Positions 4,777-15,134 of a stretch of 64,000 nucleotides of DNA are shown here, piece after piece. The notes below the pieces were generated by a model, which saw only the letters and a program-made list of their open reading frames with translations, was not told where the DNA came from and made no database searches. The number at the start of each line of letters is the position of its first letter. Position 1 is the stretch's first letter. A program made the position numbers and the translations under genes. The stretch covers positions 186,001 to 250,000 of the forward strand of contig NZ_CP039290.1 in the NCBI RefSeq assembly GCF_004798705.1, in the 5' to 3' direction. This stretch comes from Arthrobacter sp. PAMC25564 (GTDB lineage: Bacteria; Actinomycetota; Actinomycetes; Actinomycetales; Micrococcaceae).

Positions 4777-5547
4777 ATGACTGAACTCCCCCTGATCGGC
4801 GAGGCTGTTGCCGTCGCCGCGCACGCTCCTGGTGCTGGCAAGCTCGCCGGTGCGAAGATCGGCGTCGTCACCTTCCCCGGCACCCTGGATGACCGTGATG
4901 CCGCCCGTGCGATCCGCCTCGCCGGAGCCACCCCGGTGGCGCTGTGGCACGCCGACACCACCTTGGGCGACGTCGACGCCGTCGTGATTCCCGGCGGTTT
5001 CTCCTACGGTGACTACCTCCGCGCCGGCGCCATCGCCCGTTTCGCGCCGCTGATGTCCAAAATCATCGACGCCGCCAACTCGGACGCCAAACTTCCTGTG
5101 CTCGGCATCTGCAATGGCTTCCAGATCCTCACGGAATCGCACCTGTTGCCGGGCTCGATGATCAAAAACGACCACCTCAAGTTCATGTGCCGCGACCAGG
5201 TCCTCCGGGTGGAAAACAACGCCACCGACTGGACCCGGGACTACGCCGTCGGCCAGGAAATCACCGTCCCGCTGAAGAACCAGGACGGCCAGTACATCGC
5301 GGATGAGAAGACGCTGGACGCCCTCGAGGCTGAAGGACGCGTGGTGTTCCGCTACGTCGGGTTCAACCCCAACGGCTCCCGCCGCGACATCGCCGGCATC
5401 TCCAACGCGGCCGGCAACATCGTGGGGCTCATGCCGCACCCCGAGCACGCGGTGGAGGCCGGTTTCGGCCCCGAGAACGGCCCCGGCACCGAGGGCCTCG
5501 GTTTCTTCACCTCTGTCCTGAACAAAATCGTGGGAGACAACAAATGA
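4777..5547 (+). CDS. purQ: FGAM synthase glutaminase subunit PurQ
   Basis: A class I glutamine amidotransferase that supplies ammonia to PurL. The nucleophile is Cys112 in LGICNGFQ; the His-Glu pair is His221/Glu223 in MPHPEHA. The 256-residue protein carries about 25 extra N-terminal residues before the usual [12 protein letters not shown] start; whether the annotated ATG or a later codon is used cannot be settled, though the ATG lies one base after the purS stop. Its 3' end overlaps purL by ATGA. Confidence 0.96.
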
Positions 5548-7940
5548 CGGAGACCTCGCGCCCCATCGGCACCCTAACCTCGCAAGCTCGGCCCGGGAAC
5601 CCTGCCGGCGTGGACCCAGGCCCCGCGGGCGGAAACGTCACCGCGGCCAAGAAGTTCAACATCGACACCGTTGAAAACGCCGCCAAGACCCCCGACGTCG
5701 AACTGCCTTGGGCCGAGCTGGGCCTGAAGCAGAACGAGTTCGACGAGGTCGTCAAGGTCCTGGGCCGCCGCCCGACCGGCGCCGAACTCGCCATGTACTC
5801 CGTGATGTGGAGCGAGCACTGCTCCTACAAGTCCTCCAAGAACCACCTGCGCCAGTTCGGCGAAAAGGTGACCGAGGAGATGAAGAAGGACATGCTCGTG
5901 GGGATCGGCGAAAACGCCGGCGTTACGAACCTGGGCGACGGCTGGGCCGTGACGTTCAAGATCGAGTCCCACAACTCGCCGTCGTTCGTGGAGCCCTACC
6001 AGGGCGCGGCCACCGGCATCGGCGGCATTGTCCGCGACATCATCTCGATGGGTGCCCGCCCGGTCGCCGTGATGGATCCGCTGCGTTTCGGCGCCATCGA
6101 CCACCCGGACACGGCCCGCGTCATGCACGGCGCCGTGGCCGGCATCGGCGGCTACGGAAACTCCCTGGGCCTGCCCAACATCGGCGGCGAAATGGTCTTC
6201 GACTCCGTGTACCAGGGCAACCCGCTGGTCAACGCGCTGGCCGTCGGCGTCATGCGCCACGAGGACATCCGGCTCGCCAACGCCTCCGGCAAGGGCAACA
6301 AGGTGGTGCTCTTCGGCGCCCGGACCGGCGGCGACGGGATCGGCGGCGCCTCGGTGCTGGCCTCGGAGTCCTTCGACGACACCAAGCCGTCCAAGCGCCC
6401 CGCCGTCCAGGTGGGCGATCCCTTCGCCGAGAAGGTCCTGATCGAGTGCTGCCTGGAGCTGTTCAAGGGTTCACTGGTCGAGGGCATCCAGGACCTGGGC
6501 GCCGCGGGCATTTCCTGCGCCACCTCCGAGCTCGCCTCCAATGGCGACGGCGGCATGGAAGTTGAACTGACCTCCGTCCTGCTGCGGGACCCCACCCTGA
6601 CCCCGGGCGAAATCCTGATGTCCGAGTCGCAGGAACGCATGATGGCCGTGGTCACCCCGGAGAACATCGCCGCATTTGAAGCCGTGATGGACAAGTGGGC
6701 TGTCGAGTACTCCTGGCTGGGCGAGGTGACCGACACCGGCCGCCTGATCATCACGTGGGAAGGCGAAGTCATCGTCGACGTCGACCCGCGCACCGTGGCC
6801 CACGATGGTCCGGTCTACGACCGCCCCTATGCCCGCCCCGAATGGCAGGACGCGGTCCAGGCCGACTCCTTCACCGGCTCCGTCCAGGATGCGGGTCGCC
6901 CCTCGGCGCCCGCGGAACTGGCCGCCGCCATTACCGAACTAGTTGCCTCGCCGAATATGTGCGACAAGTCCTGGATCACCAAGCAGTACGACCGCTACGT
7001 CGGCGGCAACACCGCGATGGCGTTCCCGGACGACGCGGGCGTGGTCCGGGTGGACGAGGAAACCGGTCTGGGCGTAGCCTTGGCCACCGACGCCAACGGC
7101 CGCTACACCTACCTCGATCCGTACCACGGCGCGCAGCTGGCACTGGCCGAGGCCTACCGGAACGTCGCCACTTCCGGCGCCGTGCCGATGGCCGTCAGCG
7201 ACTGCCTGAACTTCGGCTCTCCCGAGGACCCCGCCGTCATGTGGCAGCTGGCCGAGGCCATCCGCGGCCTGTCCGACGCCTGCATGGTGCTGGGCATCCC
7301 GGTCACCGGCGGCAACGTGTCGCTGTACAACCAGACCGGCACCGTCCCCATCCACCCCTCCCCCGTGGTGGCCGTGCTGGGCAAGTTCGACGACGTCGCC
7401 CGCCGCACGCCGTCAGGCTGGCGCGAGGACGGCCAGGCCATCTATCTGCTGGGCACGACAGCGGCAGAACTGGACGGTTCGGAATGGTCCAACATGCGCG
7501 GACACCTCGGCGGGCTGCCGCCCAAGGTCGACCTCGCGGCCGAACGGGCGCTGGGTGAAATCCTGATCAATGCGTCCCGGGACGGCATGGTGGACTCCGC
7601 GCACGACCTCTCCGAAGGCGGCCTAGCGGCAGCCCTCGTGGAGTCCTCGCTGCGCTACGGCGTCGGCGCCCGGATCGCGCTCCAGGATGTCCTGGACCGC
7701 GACGGGGTGGACCTGTTCACGGCGCTGTTCTCCGAATCCCAGGGCCGCGCCATTGTAGGCGTCCCCCGCTCGGAGGAGATCCGCTTCAAGGACATGTGCA
7801 CGGCCCGCGGCTTCGCGCACGTCCGGATCGGCGTGGTCGACGCTGAGGGCGGCAAGCTGGAGATCAACGGCGTCGAGACCATGAACCTTGACGCGCTCCG
7901 CGAAGCCCACGAGGCGACCCTGCCGAAGTACTTCGGCTAA
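5544..7940 (+). CDS. purL: FGAM synthase subunit PurL with in-frame repeat insert
   Basis: The ATP-dependent synthetase subunit of the PurS/PurQ/PurL complex, converting FGAR to FGAM. The 798-residue small-type PurL has the expected [12 protein letters not shown], the ESHNSPS loop, [14 protein letters not shown] and the C-terminal [10 protein letters not shown] region. It starts inside the purQ stop (ATGA), so translation is coupled. Residues 13-25 ([13 protein letters not shown]) are encoded by a 41-base element found again inside acs; this explains part of a roughly 40-residue N-terminal extension ahead of the conserved NIDTVENA region. The gene ends 72 bases from a convergent gene with a palindrome between. 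Confidence 0.97.
5578..5618 (+). repeat. In-frame intragenic repeat, copy 1 (in purL)
   Basis: A 41-base element matching 37 of 41 positions of 14827-14867 in acs. Read in the purL frame it gives [13 protein letters not shown]. The centre contains GGGAACCC. The two host genes are unrelated, yet the element sits in the same reading phase in both. Confidence 0.85.
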
Positions 7941-7951
7941 CCCACCTCCAT

Positions 7952-8007
7952 CGATTGCTCCGCAGCTGCCCTTTTGAACCCTCAGAACGGCAGTTACGGA
8001 GCAATCG
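7952..8007. repeat. Palindromic intergenic element, copy A
   Basis: Arms 7952-7970 and 7989-8007 pair over 19 bases (17 Watson-Crick plus two wobble). It lies between the convergent purL and DUF559 gene stops and likely works as a two-way terminator. Arms and centre resemble the elements at 9011-9062 and 9382-9429. Confidence 0.75.
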
Positions 8008-8011
8008 TTCG

Positions 8012-8953
8012 TTAACGGCCCGGACGCCAGCCGGCCTGGACAAGCGCGGTCCGGATCTTGGCCACTGCGGCCCTGGCATCACCATGCATGTGGCGCTTGG
8101 AGATCCGGACCTCTGTCCAGCCGACGGCCGTGTACCGCTCGGAGCGGGCGATGTCCCGGACGATCTGCCCCTCGCCACTGTGGTGCGCCCCCTCGTACTC
8201 GATGCCGATTTTGTATTTCCGGTAGGAGAGATCCGGCTCATGGTGCCGTGCGCCTTCCGCATCGATGATGGGGACGTTCAGTTCCGGTTCCGGCAGGCCG
8301 GCCCGCACCATGGCAAGCCGCAGCAATGATTCCTGCGGCGAATCGGAGCCCACCCGGATCAACTTGATGGCCTCTTTGGCCCTCCGTAGGCCGCGCTTAC
8401 CCTTATGCCGGTCGATCATCCGCTGCAGATCCGCGAGGCTGCAGAGCGGCATATCCCGGCCCTCAAATTCCGCTCGGGGCACCCTGACGCAACTGTCGCC
8501 GGCAACCACGAGTCCGTCCAGAGTCAGCATTTCGGCAAGATCCAGCCAAGTCCGCTCAGGAGTGGTGATGGGAATCCCGTCCAGAATCGTGATCTCATCC
8601 TCATAGAGCTTCATGCGGTGGACGACGATGTGCGGCCGGTTGAGGTGGGCCTCCCCCTCCGGGCGAATGATGTGATACATCTCGGTGGCCTCCTTCTGCT
8701 GTCGCCCCGGCAGCCCCAACAGGCCCAAGGCGGTGAGGTGGGATGCGGTGCATCGCTCATTGACCTCAAGGAAAGGCCGCACTCGCACGCTCAAGGGGAG
8801 CTCCGCCGTCGGGCCCAGGGAACGAATTCCCTTGCCCATCGCCCTCAGCGAGCCGTGACGCAATCGCTTGGGCGACACGCCAGCCAACGTCGCTTCGGCG
8901 ACGGTGAAGGGGCGGTCCTGGAAGTCCTCCGGCAACGGCTGCGCGGTTTTCAT
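8012..8953 (-). CDS. DUF559-type nuclease-like protein with N-terminal winged-helix-like region
   Basis: A 313-residue protein of a family common in actinobacteria. The N-terminus (FTVAEATLAGVSPKRLRHG) looks like the winged-helix region seen in AbiEi-like proteins; the middle (ITTPERTWLDLAEML) matches the conserved linker; the C-terminus carries a PD-(D/E)xK-like DUF559 core, with EPDLSYRKYKIGIEYEG giving the acidic residues. The reading frame continues upstream to 9061, but that part is a translation of the palindromic repeat, so the ATG at 8953 (MKTAQPLPED) is chosen. No toxin partner adjoins it. The biological role is unknown. Confidence 0.75.
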   Translation of the reverse strand: MKTAQPLPEDFQDRPFTVAEATLAGVSPKRLRHGSLRAMGKGIRSLGPTAELPLSVRVRPFLEVNERCTASHLTALGLLGLPGRQQKEATEMYHIIRPEGEAHLNRPHIVVHRMKLYEDEITILDGIPITTPERTWLDLAEMLTLDGLVVAGDSCVRVPRAEFEGRDMPLCSLADLQRMIDRHKGKRGLRRAKEAIKLIRVGSDSPQESLLRLAMVRAGLPEPELNVPIIDAEGARHHEPDLSYRKYKIGIEYEGAHHSGEGQIVRDIARSERYTAVGWTEVRISKRHMHGDARAAVAKIRTALVQAGWRPGR

Positions 8954-9010
8954 GGCTTCATAAGACCAGATCGGTGACGAGTCCGCAGAAGTTATCCACA
9001 ATCCCGGTCC

Positions 9011-9062
9011 ATTGCTCCAGGCCTGCCCTTCTGGGCACTCAAAAGGGCCGTTGTGGAGCAAT
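9011..9062. repeat. Palindromic intergenic element, copy B
   Basis: Outer arms ATTGCTCCA at 9011-9019 and its complement at 9054-9062 pair perfectly, followed by a mismatched block and an inner CCCTT/AAGGG pair around CTGGGCACTCA. Same family as 7952-8007 and 9382-9429. It lies between the DUF503 stop and the DUF559 gene start, both on the minus strand. Confidence 0.7.
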
Positions 9063-9068
9063 CGATGG

Positions 9069-9377
9069 TCAGTCGTCGCTGCGGAGTTCCCGCTGGCGGG
9101 CGCTGAGCAGCTCCATCTCCGGACGTGCCGCCACGAAGCGTTCGACGGCGGCGAGAACCTCCAGCAGGTGTGCCCGGTCGGCCGCGACGAGCCCGGCGCC
9201 GATCACCGTGCGCCGGTACTGGTCCTGCAGCCCGGCCTCGGTCACGGAGACGTCGAAGCGGCGCTTGATTTCGGCCAGCACGGGCCGCACCACCGAACGC
9301 TTCTCCTTCAGGGTGTGGACATCGCCGAGGAGGAGGTCGAATTCAATCCAGCCGATCCACATGCCTCTATTCTTCAT
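9069..9377 (-). CDS. DUF503 family protein
   Basis: A 102-residue protein with the family signature GWIEFDLLLGDVHTLKEKRS near the start, followed by the ferredoxin-like beta-alpha pattern of DUF503 (YlxP-like) proteins. The function is not established; relatives are found near ribosome-assembly genes in other bacteria. Two starts are possible: ATG at 9377, with GGAG at a good distance inside the neighbouring repeat, or ATG at 9362 (MWIGW), which is the usual family start but has AGAGG too close. If 9377 is right, the repeat copy C provides the ribosome-binding site. Confidence 0.85.
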   Translation of the reverse strand: MKNRGMWIGWIEFDLLLGDVHTLKEKRSVVRPVLAEIKRRFDVSVTEAGLQDQYRRTVIGAGLVAADRAHLLEVLAAVERFVAARPEMELLSARQRELRSDD

Positions 9378-9381
9378 CCAT

Positions 9382-9429
9382 TGCTCCGTAAGTGCCGTTT
9401 TGGGCGCTCAAAAAGGCAGCTACGGAGCA
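9382..9429. repeat. Palindromic intergenic element, copy C
   Basis: Arms 9382-9396 and 9415-9429 pair at 13 of 15 positions. The centre TTTTGGGCGCTCAAAA is nearly the same as the centre of the perfect palindrome at 49023-49070. It separates the DUF503 gene start from the monooxygenase-like gene stop. Confidence 0.75.
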
Positions 9430-9439
9430 CTCGATGGGA

Positions 9440-9757
9440 TTAGATGGTGAGTTCGCCCATCCGGTCCCAGCCCTCGCCGTCGAGCTGGCGGCTGATGATC
9501 CGGGGCGTCTCCAGCAGCGCCTGCGGCAGGTCCGCCATGGCCTGCTGGAAGTGTGCGCTGCTGACGTGGGCCCCGGCGGCGCCGTCCTTGAAGGCCTCGA
9601 CCAGGACAAATTCGTTGGGGTCCTCCACGCTGCGGGACCAGTCGAACCAGAGGTTGCCGGGTTCCTGGCGGGTGGCCCGGGTGAAGTCCTCCACGAGGCC
9701 GGGCCAGCGCTCGGACCAGTCTGGCTTGACCTTGAATTTGACGACGATGAAGATCAT
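9440..9757 (-). CDS. Antibiotic biosynthesis monooxygenase (ABM) fold protein
   Basis: A 105-residue dimeric alpha/beta barrel protein of the ABM/YgiN-like group, often annotated as putative quinol monooxygenase. The start MIFIVVKFKVKPDW, the NLWFDWSRS strand, the FVLVEAFKDGAAGAHVSS turn and the HFQQAMADLP helix fit the family. The frame runs further upstream, but the ATG at 9757 gives the standard family N-terminus. Substrate is unknown. Confidence 0.85.
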   Translation of the reverse strand: MIFIVVKFKVKPDWSERWPGLVEDFTRATRQEPGNLWFDWSRSVEDPNEFVLVEAFKDGAAGAHVSSAHFQQAMADLPQALLETPRIISRQLDGEGWDRMGELTI

Positions 9758-9855
9758 TGGCTGAAGCCTTCCGTTCGGATCTGACTCGGATGTGACACGT
9801 CCCATTCTTTCAAGTCAGGAACGCGGAGTCAGATCCCGCCCGTCCCGGCCGGACC

Positions 9856-9882
9856 AATGGGCTGTAAGTGACCCCGCGTTGC
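9856..9882 (+). repeat. Half copy of the 24126-24192 palindrome
   Basis: These 27 bases match the right arm of the hairpin at 24126-24192 except for one base. The partner arm is missing here, so this copy cannot form the long hairpin. It lies between the ABM and DUF1990 genes. Confidence 0.6.
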
Positions 9883-9917
9883 AAGGGTCCGTTGCTCCGG
9901 CATCTGCCGGCTCCTGC

Positions 9918-10466
9918 TCAGTTCACGCCTGCGGCCAGTTCTTGTGCACTCCCAAGGTAGCGGGAAGTGATGAGAGCCCGCGCCCGCTTGGCCAGCGCGC
10001 CGCCGGCCGCGTAGAACCAGCTCGACGGCACGCCGAAGGCGGTGATTTTGATCAGCACCATGCCATTCCCATCGATGGAGATCTCAAAGGCCTCCTCGCC
10101 GCGGACCGGATGGCCCGGCAGCGTGCCGTAACCGAATCCTGCCGACTGGGGCCCGTCCCCGGGCACCGGGGCGCGCACCCAGACGACCTCGCACGGCGCG
10201 TCAATCCGGAACGGCCCGGCGCCGAAGCCGCTCACCACGCGTGCGCCCGGGACCACGGCGTCGGACTCCGCACGGACCCGCAGACCGGCCCCTCTCTGGA
10301 GCTGCCACGTCAGCATGCCTTGGACGGCCCGCCGGTATGCCGCGGGGCCGTGCCCCAGATAAGCCTCCGAGACGAGGCATTCAACGTCCGCCGGGAGTGG
10401 CCCGTGCTCCGTGGATCCGATGCCCGCATAGTTCAGTCCGCCGGGGGCAATCCGCGGCCCGTTCAT
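9918..10466 (-). CDS. DUF1990 family protein
   Basis: A 182-residue protein with the DUF1990 pattern: N-terminal NYAGIGSTEHGPLP, central RVVSGFGAGPFRIDAPCEVVWV, and GFGYGTLPGHPVRGEEAFEI. DUF1990 proteins have a START/SRPBCC-like beta-grip; no reaction is established. Its start overlaps the upstream MmcQ/YjbR gene by four bases, so both are probably translated together from one message. Confidence 0.85.
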   Translation of the reverse strand: MNGPRIAPGGLNYAGIGSTEHGPLPADVECLVSEAYLGHGPAAYRRAVQGMLTWQLQRGAGLRVRAESDAVVPGARVVSGFGAGPFRIDAPCEVVWVRAPVPGDGPQSAGFGYGTLPGHPVRGEEAFEISIDGNGMVLIKITAFGVPSSWFYAAGGALAKRARALITSRYLGSAQELAAGVN

Positions 10467-10885
10467 GGCCGCGCCTGCTGCGGGGTTCCCATGCTGAGCG
10501 TGGCCCAGCCGAGCTGTTCCTGCTGCCGCCGGCTCAGCGTGGCGACGACGAGGTCATAGGAGTCCTCGACCAGGTCCCGCACCATCGAATCGGGCAGGGC
10601 GCCGTCGAGCCGGACGCCGTTCCAGTGCTTCTTGTTCAGGTGCCAGGCGCCGGCGATCTCCGGGTGGGCGGCCCGCAGCTGTTCGGCGAGCACCGGGTCG
10701 CATTTCAGGCTCACGGACCAGTCGTCCGGGTCCATGGCGGACAGGGCAAACATCTTGGCCTCGTGGCGGGCACCACCGGAAACCGCGGCACGCACCTTGA
10801 AGACGGATGTCTCCGGGCCAAAGGGGAAGTCCTCGAAAGCGCCGGGGAAGCCGAGGCACAGCCGGCGCAGTGCAACTACATCCAT
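10463..10885 (-). CDS. MmcQ/YjbR family protein
   Basis: A 140-residue protein of the MmcQ/YjbR (CyaY-like fold) family: LRRLCLGFPGAFEDFPFGP at the start, KMFAL, VSLKCDP, then HLNKKHWNGVRLDG, and a C-terminal helix SYDLVVATLSRR. Members are proposed DNA-binding or ligand-binding proteins; the role is unproven. It is the first gene of a two-gene unit with the DUF1990 gene (four-base overlap). Confidence 0.88.
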   Translation of the reverse strand: MDVVALRRLCLGFPGAFEDFPFGPETSVFKVRAAVSGGARHEAKMFALSAMDPDDWSVSLKCDPVLAEQLRAAHPEIAGAWHLNKKHWNGVRLDGALPDSMVRDLVEDSYDLVVATLSRRQQEQLGWATLSMGTPQQARP

Positions 10886-10946
10886 GGTTCGAGCCTACTT
10901 CCGTCCACGGACATTTGGCACGGAGATCCGGCGAGATCAGAGCGGC

Positions 10947-11852
10947 TCAGGCGACGCCGAGGAAATCCTCGAGCAGCACCACTTCAAGGCCGGCGGCCAG
11001 CTGGGCTGCACGGAAGGCGGCCAGGTCGGCGGCGAACTCGGGGCGGAAATGCATCAGCACAATGTCCCCCGGGCGCAGCGCATTCCCGTACTGGTAGTCC
11101 ATGCGCCCGGCATTGGCCTTGGCCTCCCAGGTCACGACCGCTTTCATTCCGGCTGCGGCGACGGCCTGCCGCAGGGCAGTGGAGTAGGCGCCTCCCGGCG
11201 GCCGGAACAGGGTGGGGCGGCGTCCGAACTGCTGCTGGGCGTAGTCCTGCATCCCGGTGATCTCGGCGAGCTGCTGCTGGTACCCGAGTTGAGTGACCAT
11301 GTTGATGTTGTGGCTGATCGTGTGGTTTTCCACCAGGCTGCCCTGCACGGCGAACTGCTTGAAGAAGGCCGGATCGTTCTGGACGAAGTTCCGGGTGAGG
11401 AAGATCGATGCCGGGTAGTCGTATTCGGTCATGAGGCGCACCATCTCCGGGGTCCTCGTAATGCCGTCGTCAATGGTCAGGAACACCACAGGGTGTTTCG
11501 TCTCGATCCTGGTCAGGACGGGCGCGAGTCCGTTTTGCACCGGCGGCAGCTTGAAGTCCGGGATGAAACTGCGCCGGATGCGCTTGCTTCCCGGGCGGCG
11601 CAGGGCCGCGGGTGCCGTGGGATCTCCGGGGACCGCGGCATTTCCCTGCCGGACCGTCAGCAGCGCGGGAAGCGGCTGCCCGGCGCCCGGTGCGGCGCCG
11701 GGGCCGGGGCCGGCCGCGGCTGCCACTCCCGCCGTCGTGCTTCCCGGCACCGCGCACGCGCCCAAGGCCGCCATCAGGGAGGCTCCCAAAAGGCCCAGTG
11801 CCGCCCGCCGTCCGGGGGTGGCCGGGAGCACTGTCGGATGGTGCTCACACAT
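10947..11852 (-). CDS. Lipoprotein polysaccharide deacetylase (NodB/CE4 domain)
   Basis: A membrane-anchored carbohydrate esterase. The ATG at 11852 has AGGA seven bases upstream and gives a lipoprotein signal with lipobox LGAC (Cys33). A Pro/Gly/Ala linker follows. The NodB domain has TIDDG (Asp128, Asp129), the metal histidines in HTISH (177/181), RPPGG at 217-221, and a late LMHF. These residues fit an active, metal-dependent N-deacetylase acting on cell-wall or extracellular glycans. It stands alone between small cytosolic genes. Confidence in fold is high; the exact polymer is unknown. Confidence 0.9.
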   Translation of the reverse strand: MCEHHPTVLPATPGRRAALGLLGASLMAALGACAVPGSTTAGVAAAAGPGPGAAPGAGQPLPALLTVRQGNAAVPGDPTAPAALRRPGSKRIRRSFIPDFKLPPVQNGLAPVLTRIETKHPVVFLTIDDGITRTPEMVRLMTEYDYPASIFLTRNFVQNDPAFFKQFAVQGSLVENHTISHNINMVTQLGYQQQLAEITGMQDYAQQQFGRRPTLFRPPGGAYSTALRQAVAAAGMKAVVTWEAKANAGRMDYQYGNALRPGDIVLMHFRPEFAADLAAFRAAQLAAGLEVVLLEDFLGVA

Positions 11853-11964
11853 GGCTGGTCCTGGCTTCTTGGGGGATGATTCAGCAGAACAGTAGCAGAG
11901 CAAAACGGCGGGTCGGTGACGCGCCGGATGGGGGGGGCCGGCCGCCGGCGGTCAGGGGCCGAAA

Positions 11965-12396
11965 CTAGAGGCCGAAACGCCGGGCATCCAGCGCCGGACA
12001 GGTGTTCATAATCACATCGAGGCCGGCGGCCTTGGCCCGTGCTGCGGCCGCTTCATCGATGACGCCCAGCTGCAACCAGACGGCCTTGGCCCCGACGGCG
12101 ATCGCCTGGTCCACGACGGCGCCCACCTTCCGGGAATTCAGGAAGCAGTCGACGACGTCGATGGGCCGCTTGGCGGCCGGAATGTCGGCCAGGCTTTTGT
12201 ACCCTGTCTCGCCGTGCACGGTATCGCCGGGAAGGTTTACCGGGATGATCTCCATGCCCAGGCGGTCCCGGATGAACAGGGCGGTATCGTACGCGGCACG
12301 CCATTCGTTGGTGGTCAGCCCGACGATGGCCCACCGGCCCTTGGTGCGCATGAGCCTTTCGAGGACTGCCGGATCGTTCACGTGGGCCATGACCAA
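11965..12396 (-). CDS. CoA-binding (YccU-like) protein
   Basis: A 143-residue Rossmann-fold protein of the CoA_binding_2 group: WAIVGLTTNEWRAAYDTALF near the start, then IPVNLPGDTVHGETGYKSLAD, DVVDCFLNS and KAVWLQLGVIDEAAAARA, ending with an NTCPALDARRF metal-or-ligand-like tail. A paralogue sits at 17698-18195, at the far end of the divergent SAM-riboswitch operon. The ATG two codons downstream is an equally possible start. Function of this family is not defined. Confidence 0.88.
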   Translation of the reverse strand: MVMAHVNDPAVLERLMRTKGRWAIVGLTTNEWRAAYDTALFIRDRLGMEIIPVNLPGDTVHGETGYKSLADIPAAKRPIDVVDCFLNSRKVGAVVDQAIAVGAKAVWLQLGVIDEAAAARAKAAGLDVIMNTCPALDARRFGL

Positions 12397-12532
12397 AGCC
12401 TAACCTCCACGGCGGCGGGCCACGGGCACGTCGCCGCAGGCCCTCAGCATCCGGAGCCGGCTCCGAACAAATGACAGCCAGGCGCCCTTCTTCAGGCCCG
12501 GAACCGAATATTACGAAGTAAACCGCCCCGAT

Positions 12533-12561
12533 TTGGGAAAAACCAGCGATTCCGTTTTAGT
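12533..12561 (+). promoter_or_regulatory. Candidate promoter of the SAM-riboswitch operon
   Basis: TTGGGA at 12533-12538 and TTTAGT at 12556-12561 are separated by 17 bases. A start about seven bases downstream would put the first nucleotide at the edge of the riboswitch P1 stem, which fits the usual layout. Confidence 0.4.
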
Positions 12562-12570
12562 TGGAAACGA

Positions 12571-12738
12571 CCATCCCGAGCGGCCAAGAGACCTGGATCG
12601 ATGAAGCCGCAGCAACCCTGGTCGCTGGAATCTTCCCTGGACTCCCGCGATAGCAAGGCAGAGAGCCTCGGGAAAGGCCGGACCGACCACCCGGCTTCAC
12701 AGGCTCTTTCCGTAGGGTGCTACTGCCAGGACCGATGG
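12571..12738 (+). ncRNA. SAM-I (S-box) riboswitch
   Basis: The conserved core CGATGAAGCCGCAGCAACC lies at 12599-12617, preceded by the GAGCGGCCAAGAGACC segment and followed near the 3' end by GGTGCTACTGCC, all typical of S-box leaders. P1 is formed by CCATC (12571-12575) and GATGG (12734-12738). There is no terminator between P1 and the ATG at 12748; instead the 3' strand of P1 shares two bases with the GGAG ribosome-binding site (12737-12740), so ligand binding should block translation. The downstream metY and sfnG genes fit SAM-sensing control of sulfur assimilation. Confidence 0.9.
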
Positions 12739-12747
12739 AGTGCCCCC

Positions 12748-13092
12748 ATGACTGCTGTCCTGTCCTATTCCGCGCCAGATTCGTCCCCGGACGTCCCTGC
12801 CGCCGATACCCCCGATAACCCGCTGGTGAAGCAGGCGCACCCTCCCGCGCCCACCGGCAACAATGTTGCGGCAACCGGTATTCAAGCCCTGCAGGCTACT
12901 GGCGTTGCGGCAACCCCGGCAGACGCCGCCCAGCCAGCCTTGCCCGAATCGGGCCGGTGCGGCTCCCCGGCGAACGGATGGTCCCCCGCCGGGATCCCGG
13001 CCAACGGCTGGGCGCGTCTGCGACGTGGGCTGAAGATCACCGATGCCCTTCCGGACCTCACGAAGAAATGGACGGTAGCCCGATGGGCGTAA
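12748..13092 (+). CDS. Small riboswitch-proximal ORF, function unknown (114 aa)
   Basis: This ATG is the first one after the SAM riboswitch, seven bases from GGAG at 12737-12740, so it is the start the riboswitch most directly controls. The product is Pro/Ala-rich at first and ends with a basic, Trp-containing segment (KITDALPDLTKKWTVARWA). Its stop overlaps the synthetase start by ten bases (13083-13092), so ribosomes finishing it could reinitiate on acs. I recognise no domain; it may be a leader whose role is coupling, or a diverged gene. Confidence 0.5.
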   Translation: MTAVLSYSAPDSSPDVPAADTPDNPLVKQAHPPAPTGNNVAATGIQALQATGVAATPADAAQPALPESGRCGSPANGWSPAGIPANGWARLRRGLKITDALPDLTKKWTVARWA

Positions 13093-15134
13093 GCATCACA
13101 ACAGCCACCGAGGCAATCGATAGCGGCAGCCCCGCCACCGAAGCTGAACGCATCGCGTTCTGGGAGGCCGCAGCCCTCCGCCTCGACTGGGAACAGGGGC
13201 CGGGAACAGCTCCGGCCGGCAAGCCGTGGCACACCGCGCACCGCCGGGTTCCGGCCGACGTCGAGGCCGGCACCGGCCCGGACATCACCTGGTTCGAAGG
13301 CGGCAAGCTCAATGTGGCCTACAACTGCGTGGACCGGCACGTTGAAGCCGGGCGCGGGGACAAGGTGGCGCTGCACTTCGAGGGCGAACCGGGCGACCGC
13401 CGCTCCATCACCTATGCCGAGCTCCAGCGCGAGGTCTCCAAAGCCGCCAACGCCCTCCTCGCCCTCGGCATCACCAAGGGCGACCGTGTGGTCATCTATC
13501 TTCCGGTCATCCCGGAAACCATCATCATCACCCTGGCGGTGGCCCGCATCGGAGCCATCCACTCGCTCGTCTTCGGCGGCTTCTCCGCCGAGGCGCTCAA
13601 GTTCCGGGTGGAGGACACCCGTGCCAAGCTGCTCGTCACCACCGACGGCCAGTTCCGCCGCGGTGCCGCAGTCCCGGTCAAGGACAACGCGGATGCCGCC
13701 GTCGCCGGCCACAACGAGATTGAGCATGTCCTGGTGGTCAACCGCACCACACCGCCGGAGCTGCTGGACACCGTCCCGATGACCGAGGGCCGCGACGTCT
13801 GGTGGCACGACACCGTCGGGCGGGCCTCCGAGGTCCACACCGCGGAGGCCTTCGACGCCGAGACACCGCTGTTCATCATGTACACCTCCGGCACCACCGG
13901 CAAGCCCAAAGGCCTGGTGCACACCTCCGGCGGCTACCTCACGCAGGCGTCCTGGAGCTTCGAGCACCTCTTCAGCAACCCGGATCCGGCCCTCCGGGAC
14001 CAGGACGTCCACTGGTGCACGGCCGACCTCGCCTGGGTCACGGCCCACACCTACGAGATTTACGGCCCGCTCTCCAACGGCGTCACCCAGGTGATCTTCG
14101 AGGGCACGCCGAACACCCCGCACCCGGGCCGGCACTTCGAAATCATCGAACGCTACGGTGTGACGCAGTACTACACGGCGCCCACCCTGGTCCGCTCCCT
14201 GATGGGCTGGTTCCCCGACGGCGTCCCGGCCAGCTACGACCTCTCCTCGATCCGGCTGCTCGGCACCGTCGGCGAGGCCGTCAACCCCGAGGCCTGGCGC
14301 TGGTTCCGCGAGAACATCGGCGCCGGCACCGCGCCGGTGGTGGACACCTGGTGGCAGTCCGAGACCGGGGCCACCATCCTCTCCCCCGCCCCGACCGACT
14401 CGGAGTTCAAGCCCGGCTGCGCGGCGCGGCCGCTGCCCGGCGTCGGCACCCGGATCGTGGACGCCGCCGGCAGCACCGTTCCGGCGGGTGTCCAGGGCTT
14501 CATCGTGGTGGACGCCCCCGGCCCCGCCATTGCCCGGACGGTGTGGGGCAACCCGCAGCGCTACTTCGATTCGTACTGGCGCCAGTACGCCGAACAGGGC
14601 TGGTTCCTCGCCGGTGACGGCGCCAAGTATGACGACGACGGCGACATCTGGATTTTGGGGCGGGTGGACGACACCCTCAACGTCTCCGGGCACCTGCTGT
14701 CCACGATCGAGATCGAATCGGCCCTCGTGTCCCACCCGGACGTGGTGGAGGCCGGGGTGTGCCCCGTCGCGGACCCGAAGACCGGGCACGCCATCGTGGC
14801 ATTCGTGGTCCCCACCCGTTCCCTCCCCTCGCAAGCTCGGGCAGGGAACCCTGCGGGCGTGGGCCCAAACTCATTTGCTGAGGAGCTCCGCCACCACGTC
14901 GCGAAGGCGATCGGCCCGATCGCCAAGCCGCGCGACGTCGTCGTGGTCCCGGATGTCCCCAAGACCCGCAGCGGCAAGATCATGCGGCGGCTGCTCACCC
15001 AGCTGTTCGAAGGAACGGCGCTGGGCGACACCACCTCACTCCAGAACGAACCGGCCATCGCCGACATCCAGCACGTATTGCGCGAACGCACAGCGGCCAC
15101 CGCTGCCGCGCCGGCCCTCCCCACCCAGAAGTAA
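13083..15134 (+). CDS. acs: Acetyl-CoA synthetase (AMP-forming) with in-frame repeat insert
   Basis: An ANL-family acyl-CoA synthetase that activates acetate with ATP and CoA. The AMP-binding motif TSGTTGKPKG is at residues 268-277, WCTADLAWVTAHTYEIYGPL and TWWQSETG follow, and the catalytic, acetylatable Lys is Lys632 in RSGKIMRR. At 683 residues it is somewhat longer than usual; residues 583-595 (SQARAGNPAGVGP) come from a 41-base repeat also present in purL, placed between the beta strand ending VVPTR and the helix EELRHHVAKAIG of the mobile C-terminal domain. The ATG at 13083 gives the conserved N-terminus. In this operon MetY releases acetate, which this enzyme could recycle (inference). 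Confidence 0.93.
   Translation: MGVSITTATEAIDSGSPATEAERIAFWEAAALRLDWEQGPGTAPAGKPWHTAHRRVPADVEAGTGPDITWFEGGKLNVAYNCVDRHVEAGRGDKVALHFEGEPGDRRSITYAELQREVSKAANALLALGITKGDRVVIYLPVIPETIIITLAVARIGAIHSLVFGGFSAEALKFRVEDTRAKLLVTTDGQFRRGAAVPVKDNADAAVAGHNEIEHVLVVNRTTPPELLDTVPMTEGRDVWWHDTVGRASEVHTAEAFDAETPLFIMYTSGTTGKPKGLVHTSGGYLTQASWSFEHLFSNPDPALRDQDVHWCTADLAWVTAHTYEIYGPLSNGVTQVIFEGTPNTPHPGRHFEIIERYGVTQYYTAPTLVRSLMGWFPDGVPASYDLSSIRLLGTVGEAVNPEAWRWFRENIGAGTAPVVDTWWQSETGATILSPAPTDSEFKPGCAARPLPGVGTRIVDAAGSTVPAGVQGFIVVDAPGPAIARTVWGNPQRYFDSYWRQYAEQGWFLAGDGAKYDDDGDIWILGRVDDTLNVSGHLLSTIEIESALVSHPDVVEAGVCPVADPKTGHAIVAFVVPTRSLPSQARAGNPAGVGPNSFAEELRHHVAKAIGPIAKPRDVVVVPDVPKTRSGKIMRRLLTQLFEGTALGDTTSLQNEPAIADIQHVLRERTAATAAAPALPTQK
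14827..14867 (+). repeat. In-frame intragenic repeat, copy 2 (in acs)
   Basis: Matches the purL copy at 37 of 41 positions. Here the centre is a perfect GCAGGG-AA-CCCTGC hairpin. The acs frame reads it as SQARAGNPAGVGP, the same phase as in purL. Confidence 0.85.

Follow-up and report, generated by a model that had tools for sequence, protein, structure and literature searches.

We identified a short dispersed hairpin element in Arthrobacter sp. PAMC25564, two copies of which lie within the genes purL and acs on a 64,000-nt stretch of contig NZ_CP039290.1 (the window, whose coordinates are used for these two genes). At corresponding sites the element is present in one genome and missing from relatives; it comes as a unit of usually 57 nt, no target duplication accompanies it, it is inserted in hairpin loops, and its fold is conserved. 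The element is probably a non-autonomous mobile hairpin of the Micrococcaceae that is neutral to the reading frame and favours hairpin loops. Below, the source genome means the 4.17-Mb genome of this strain, and L and G numbers denote fetched loci and genomes, respectively.

One copy lies near the start of purL (phosphoribosylformylglycinamidine synthase; 5544..7940) at 5560..5618, and the other within acs (acetyl-CoA synthetase; 13083..15134, a start picked by similarity in an open reading frame open from 12957) at 14809..14867. Both genes and both copies are on the plus strand, and each copy is 59 nt long and read in frame, that in acs as PTRSLPSQARAGNPAGVGP. Direct comparison of 5578-5618 with 14827-14867 showed identity at 37/41 positions, the acs stretch being read as SQARAGNPAGVGP. 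When an 81-base query around the purL copy was run against the source genome (E<=0.001), the acs copy was retrieved at E 1.7e-10, so the likeness that the original prediction had pointed out between the two stretches, both read in frame, is not due to chance. The two copies also share their reading phase, as had been claimed; this is not a rule of the element, since the copy in cysH of the source genome is read in a different frame and that in mazG lies on the opposite strand. The proposed 41-base unit was too short. The full repeat runs over 59 nt from TCCCC to CCCA (112/132 measured single copies, the rest 49-61 nt), and the inserted unit is 57 nt (TCCCC...GGGCCC), or 19 codons. The 81-base query gave nine matches in the source genome (itself, the acs copy and seven others), weaker copies were added by a longer query, and a covariance model built from ten source-genome copies (R1) found 11, far more than the two copies first noticed.

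We then consider the distribution of the element, as searched with R1 under strict filters that lose weak matches in the large searches. Among 61 genomes of the genus, the source genome included, 59 had at least one match (E<=0.1), with 0 (G041 and G047) to 57 (G043) per genome. A family-level sample was positive (E<=0.001) in 32/149 genomes, spread over 10 of the 32 genera covered, and an order-level sample in 7 of 248 genomes (E<=0.0001), every one of them in the Micrococcaceae. An exact-pattern scan of named genomes gave at least 112 loci; among the matches listed, with 80 titles, were Arthrobacter, Pseudarthrobacter, contigs of one Micrococcaceae metagenome-assembled genome and one such genome titled Renibacterium. 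The element had no match in phages, and the only plasmid matches were NZ_AP024648.1 and NZ_AP024649.1, both of which are very large and belong to Arthrobacter sp. StoSoilB13. Several individual copies were observed in particular settings. In L287, L286, L069, L153, L178 and G027 (C58:90289-90356), whole units of about 54-57 nt and half units of 27 nt are arrayed in tandem. In the source genome, a copy after a stop codon (C1:4135411; L011 1495-1565) has another loop, CTCGCTCCGCTTCGG, and a nearly perfect outer palindrome, CTAGTCCC...GGGACTAG. An msiK RNA at L011 360-418 (RF01747, 62.6 bits) neighbours one copy.

One strand of the element forms a long nested hairpin. Its apical loop is constant (TCGCAAGCTC; 5580..5589 in the purL copy and 14829..14838 in the acs copy, plus strand), as is a bulge, and its stems are variable and compensated. 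In the purL copy, the covarying middle stem spans 5566..5608 on the plus strand, where 5566-5569 pairs with 5605-5608, including one T-G pair. Among 107 copies, 93% of cells in the middle stem (columns 13-16 with 56-60) were paired, 4/4 of its pairs were altered on both sides (100 cells), and 0/500 shuffles reached the whole structure on any of five measures; in most of these copies the inner stem and loop could hardly vary, since the scan pattern had fixed them. In 26 copies from other genera, which were fetched by R1 free of that pattern, the middle stem was 97% paired, two inner-stem pairs were altered on both sides, and the loop was kept as TCGCARGCTC. The percentage paired, the changed cells and the covariation score of these 26 copies were above shuffles (0/500 as high); the count of pairs with changes on either side of the stem was not (203/500 as high). 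The outermost stem is weakly paired (57-60%), and the ends are imperfectly inverted (TCCCCAC / GTGGG). Moreover, at what is apparently one orthologous place in L080, L157 and L163, the middle stem reads TTG/CAA or TCG/CGA, which is a compensatory change. Folded as single-stranded DNA and compared with shuffles, the acs copy gave z -2.69 on one strand and -0.10 on the other, and the copy at 4135411 gave -3.65 and -1.97.

Two other ideas about the fold were set aside. The GCAGGG-AA-CCCTGC hairpin on which the original prediction had remarked is present in the acs copy, but it is not the conserved fold: it showed no covariation among the 107 copies (0.020 versus 0.024 shuffled; 398/500 shuffles as high). 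By eye, the variable stem seemed to depend on the host site; this is partly explained by orthology and by composites spreading, and we make no claim of it. Hairpin-templated correction during replication could yield compensatory stem changes without any function. Selection for mobility, a hairpin function or such correction may lie behind the compensatory changes seen here.

Comparison of relatives revealed filled and empty sites, as expected of the mobile or formerly mobile, protein-tolerated element that had been proposed. Queries made by joining the two flanks found contiguous matches in the 206 genus genomes for 5/5 source-genome copies tested. The element was missing from the five cysH and six mazG orthologues fetched. 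L276 has a cleanly empty counterpart of the source-genome site at 4114270, and at the site in an FKBP gene the relative L261 holds an apparent remnant. Across 109 distinct single sites, target duplications of 3-9 nt occurred at chance level.

The element also enters copies of its own kind. The junction expected of such nests, CTCGCAAGTCCCCA (CTCGCAAG|TCCCCA), was found at 83 places in 52/206 genus genomes, while a reversed control was found at 4 places. In many of 30 fetched loci with the junction, a second element, mostly with the loop TTCGCAAGCTCA, interrupted the apical loop of an outer one whose stem differed. Others were truncated, had an altered outer remainder, or held no nest (L313, L323), and L178 and G027 showed 27-nt half units in tandem instead. 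Three orthologous pairs (L150/L324, L172/L316 and L137/L307) share their outer element, with and without the inner one; they differ by a single 57-nt block, which has CTCGCAAG on one side and CTCGG (CTCAG in one case) on the other, with no duplication. Flank identity in these pairs was 78-96%, the left flank of L150 being rearranged, with an extra block of about 190 nt left of the copy.

Two further repeats receive the element. One, H2 (GGTTTCGACARGCTCAACCACCG type), is itself a small hairpin and follows the pattern G[GA][TC][TC]TCGACARGCTC..CACCG, with covarying stems (GGTT/AACC, GGTC/GACC, GATC/GATC and GATT/AATC) and a loop, TCGACARGCTC, nearly that of the element. H2 takes element insertions in its loop, and it occupies permissive sites common to the element, namely the purL start (L184, L192, L208) and acs (L227, L174). 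Genome G454 holds H2 at 28 places. The other repeat, H3 (GCTCGCTCGTTCCTCGCTTAGACGC), has one exact position that either holds the element or is empty (L076, L110, L116, L172, L276 and others). The two flanks of the element are also more complementary to each other than expected by chance. At 113 sites the mean duplex energy between the two flanks was -22.6, compared with -20.2 (standard deviation 0.43) for re-paired flanks, and 0/200 re-pairings reached it; therefore, the host sequence around some copies forms a hairpin, with the element in its loop.

The net gain was +57 nt at 17/19 scorable nested sites (34 looked at), the remaining two giving 56 and 58, at 6/7 filled H3 sites measured against 2/2 empty ones, and at 9/12 filled H2 sites, the others giving 56, 58 and one truncated copy. 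The comparison for H2 was with 16 distinct empty sites, the H2-like members of a set of 19 distinct pattern matches, all having a gap of 3. Similarly, cysH of the source genome gained 57 nt against 4/5 orthologues (51 against the fifth), and mazG gained 57 nt against 4/6 (45 and 60 against the others). A loose test for coding was passed by only 1/19 nested sites (L212 acs) and by at most 2/20 filled H2 or H3 sites, both borderline, indicating that the 57-nt length belongs to the element itself and does not result from selection on the reading frame.

Few copies sit in genes, and the majority lie outside. The strict coding test found 3/107 copies with coding on both flanks. The loose one accepted 10/170 rows, among which L166 is doubtful and a single gene accounts for two. 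The sampling was not random in either case, and both tests overlook mazG and copies at gene starts (purL, cysH), the looser one also L142. The insert in purL was absent from all 29 other purL loci compared, which were taken from 58 genomes with a match. The PurL of the source genome is longer by 19 residues than that of L180 and by 23 than that of L190, and the same N-terminal stretch holds a different repeat, H2, in several loci, read as SVVEPVE in L184, L192 and L208 and as STSSIT in L183 and L198. In acs, 5/30 loci carry the element family at one place (the source genome, L210, L213, L214 and L212), all in the same genus, and the copy in L212 is nested with both layers in frame. The same residues in PurL and Acs of distant genera, which would have refuted the original prediction, were thus not observed. 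Other repeats occupy the acs insertion place in L215 and L227; L174 apparently has H2 in acs, and the acs of L105 seems to hold the element within an H2-like repeat. An H3-like sequence is in frame in the acs of L215. No insert was found in seven acs loci from other families. The site lies in the AMP-binding C-terminal domain, where the loop of a solved Acs is shorter; an AlphaFold model of Acs had a mean pLDDT of 36 and was not used. Compared with L211, the loop of L105 has 19 more residues and that of the source genome only 12 more, indicating that residues were lost in the latter.

Other genic copies were found in frame at the C-terminus of a luciferase-like monooxygenase (L169, by Pfam) and, in genes named by sequence reading, at the C-terminus of a thiolase (L246, L248), in the middle of an Lhr-like helicase (L247) and in the linker of a bifunctional aldolase/dehydrogenase (L142). 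In another genus, a biotin carboxylase (Pfam; L257 1285-1457) carries three in-frame tandem copies with PLPNLAGSAGYPGGSGP three times. The genic copies examined occupy variable loops, linkers and termini of conserved enzymes. Among copies of 59 nt, 131/132 are open in the phase that purL and acs use, and the five other frames are open in 74 to 125. Most likely, the inserts in purL and acs are only a tolerated flexible linker.

We propose that the element would be moved as a folded single strand by a recombinase specific for single strands or cruciforms, encoded elsewhere, which would read the loop and the stem; single-stranded loops would be its preferred targets. A comparison considered is with integron attC, a folded single-strand site that is read by an integrase and has conserved core boxes. 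Because the unit is 57 nt long and open in most frames, a gene that received it would gain 19 residues rich in Pro, Gly, Ala and Ser rather than being broken. It is also possible, and we suggest it tentatively, that the element stands for a class of transposable hairpin that is new. Such a 57-nt single-strand unit would integrate with precision into hairpin loops, including those of its own kind, with no duplication, no known single-strand transposase and, owing to its length and composition, no effect on frame, and it would build layered, nested linkers in essential enzymes across whole genera.

Several observations weigh against a mobile hairpin that favours loops. Mobility was never observed directly and is read from the comparison of genomes. 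The enzyme was not found: the genes between paired copies in five loci, inspected by eye for an autonomous copy, were ordinary, and no transposase was recognised among them. Loops are not the sole sites, as 24/109 left flanks end in a stop triplet and many copies occupy ordinary spacers. The share of flank pairs below -15 kcal/mol was not raised (0.78 versus 0.76), so the excess of flank complementarity would be due to a minority of strong host hairpins. The inner copies of nests are very alike, 14/19 having A where the loop has T, and some nests may be descendants of one composite that spread as a unit. Nor is the net length always 57 nt (56 and 58, 51 in cysH, 45 or 60 in mazG); purL gained 69 nt against L190 and the acs of the source genome only 36 nt against L211.

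One alternative is a REP or REPIN family moved by a RAYT (a Y1 transposase, TnpA-REP) that has since been lost from most lineages. The element is a short, imperfect palindrome with a bulge, it has numerous copies that lie chiefly between genes, it makes no target duplication, and it has a biased 5′ foot with T at -3 in 74/109 left flanks; moreover, intragenic REPs have already been described (PMC3733652). The GTAG/CGTC tag of REP feet does not mark the element, as the commonest last three bases of the left flanks were TGC (21) and CGC (12), followed by TAG (10) and TGA (9) among the 109 sites. In addition, PF01797 was found in 1/61 genus genomes and not in the source genome, while the identical search was positive in 5/14 controls, and the two PF01797 genes (L239 and L240, G032) had no element in the surrounding stretches examined. 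We consider this origin unlikely. The short, dispersed copies and their imperfectly inverted ends would also suit a classical miniature inverted-repeat transposable element (MITE) of a DDE transposon, whose parent insertion sequence was looked for only as PF01797 and, by eye, between paired copies in five loci. Such elements duplicate their target, and the chance-level duplications at the 109 sites, together with the three orthologous junctions lacking any, make a MITE very unlikely.

The repeat might also be a structured regulatory RNA or an mRNA 3′-end signal under selection that was copied by recombination, its covariation reflecting function; the strong compensatory change, seen also at the apparent orthologous place of L080, L157 and L163, the constant loop and the 24/109 copies that follow a stop triplet would fit. 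Against such a role, copy number varies from 0 to 57 among congeners, insertions occur within unrelated enzymes and within the element itself, an Rfam scan of copies in four loci matched the element to no family, and hairpin-templated correction could give the same changes without function, so that we regard a regulatory RNA as improbable. Recombination and slippage between repeats could have produced the nests and tandems passively, with composites spreading as units, and the tandem arrays of about 54-57 nt, the 27-nt half units and the nearly uniform inner copies agree with this; yet filled and empty orthologous sites (cysH, mazG, H3 and loops) differ by one unit, some with no other copy present, and passive spread is quite unlikely. 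Finally, a genic insert might be cut out of the mRNA or bypassed during translation, as its hairpin form would allow, and frame keeping is uninformative here given the frame-neutral length. The genic sites are variable loops, linkers and termini, as expected of a peptide that is present, and the purL and acs phase is open in nearly all copies, which leaves removal or skipping hardly probable at all.

A mobile hairpin that tends towards loops remains our preferred account, and the family matters beyond its two copies in the window. A common soil genus here offers the element in hundreds, with sites that are cleanly filled or empty, a unit of exact length, a strongly covarying fold and insertions in layers, and the family hints at an undiscovered enzyme acting on hairpin loops. 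The insertions also map, in nature, where acs, purL, biotin carboxylase and other enzymes are permissive. In-frame palindromic insertions as such are known already from Rickettsia and from REP-rich genomes. The open-access literature, subscription journals being outside our coverage, gave no description of this repeat family, and neither the exact frame-neutral unit nor the self-nesting in apical loops was met there. Predicted REPs of Arthrobacter livingstonensis are tabulated in PMC12306157 and may or may not include the 57/59-nt element.

The best reading is that the element works like the Rickettsia palindromic elements and the intragenic REPs, and that it is neither a REP-RAYT member, because the source genome has no RAYT and the GTAG tag is lacking, nor a DDE-type MITE, because there is no target duplication. 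According to PMC10969869, Rickettsia palindromic elements are in-frame palindromic insertions of about 150 bp; as the original prediction suggested, the likeness holds, since both are palindromic, form several families, lie in frame in unrelated genes of one lineage and are missing from orthologues. Unlike them, as far as that description allows comparison, the present element is 57 nt long, mostly extragenic and self-nesting in apical loops. The intragenic REPs of the GTAG and CGTC families, including different REPs at about one recB site in two species, are described in PMC3733652 as short, mostly intergenic palindromes, some of them in frame in enzymes; in contrast to these, our element is without the GTAG tag and has a longer nested structure with a constant loop, and PF01797 was found in a single genus genome. 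A likeness may also be drawn to the REP target of TnpA-REP, described in PMC8266576 as a single strand whose fold provides contacts at bulge and loop together with a motif at the 5′ foot; that enzyme was not found in the source genome. Palindromes are likewise targets for mobile elements where insertion sequences enter REPs, as outlined in PMC1525189; in the present case, what enters is a hairpin too, and one of the family that it enters.

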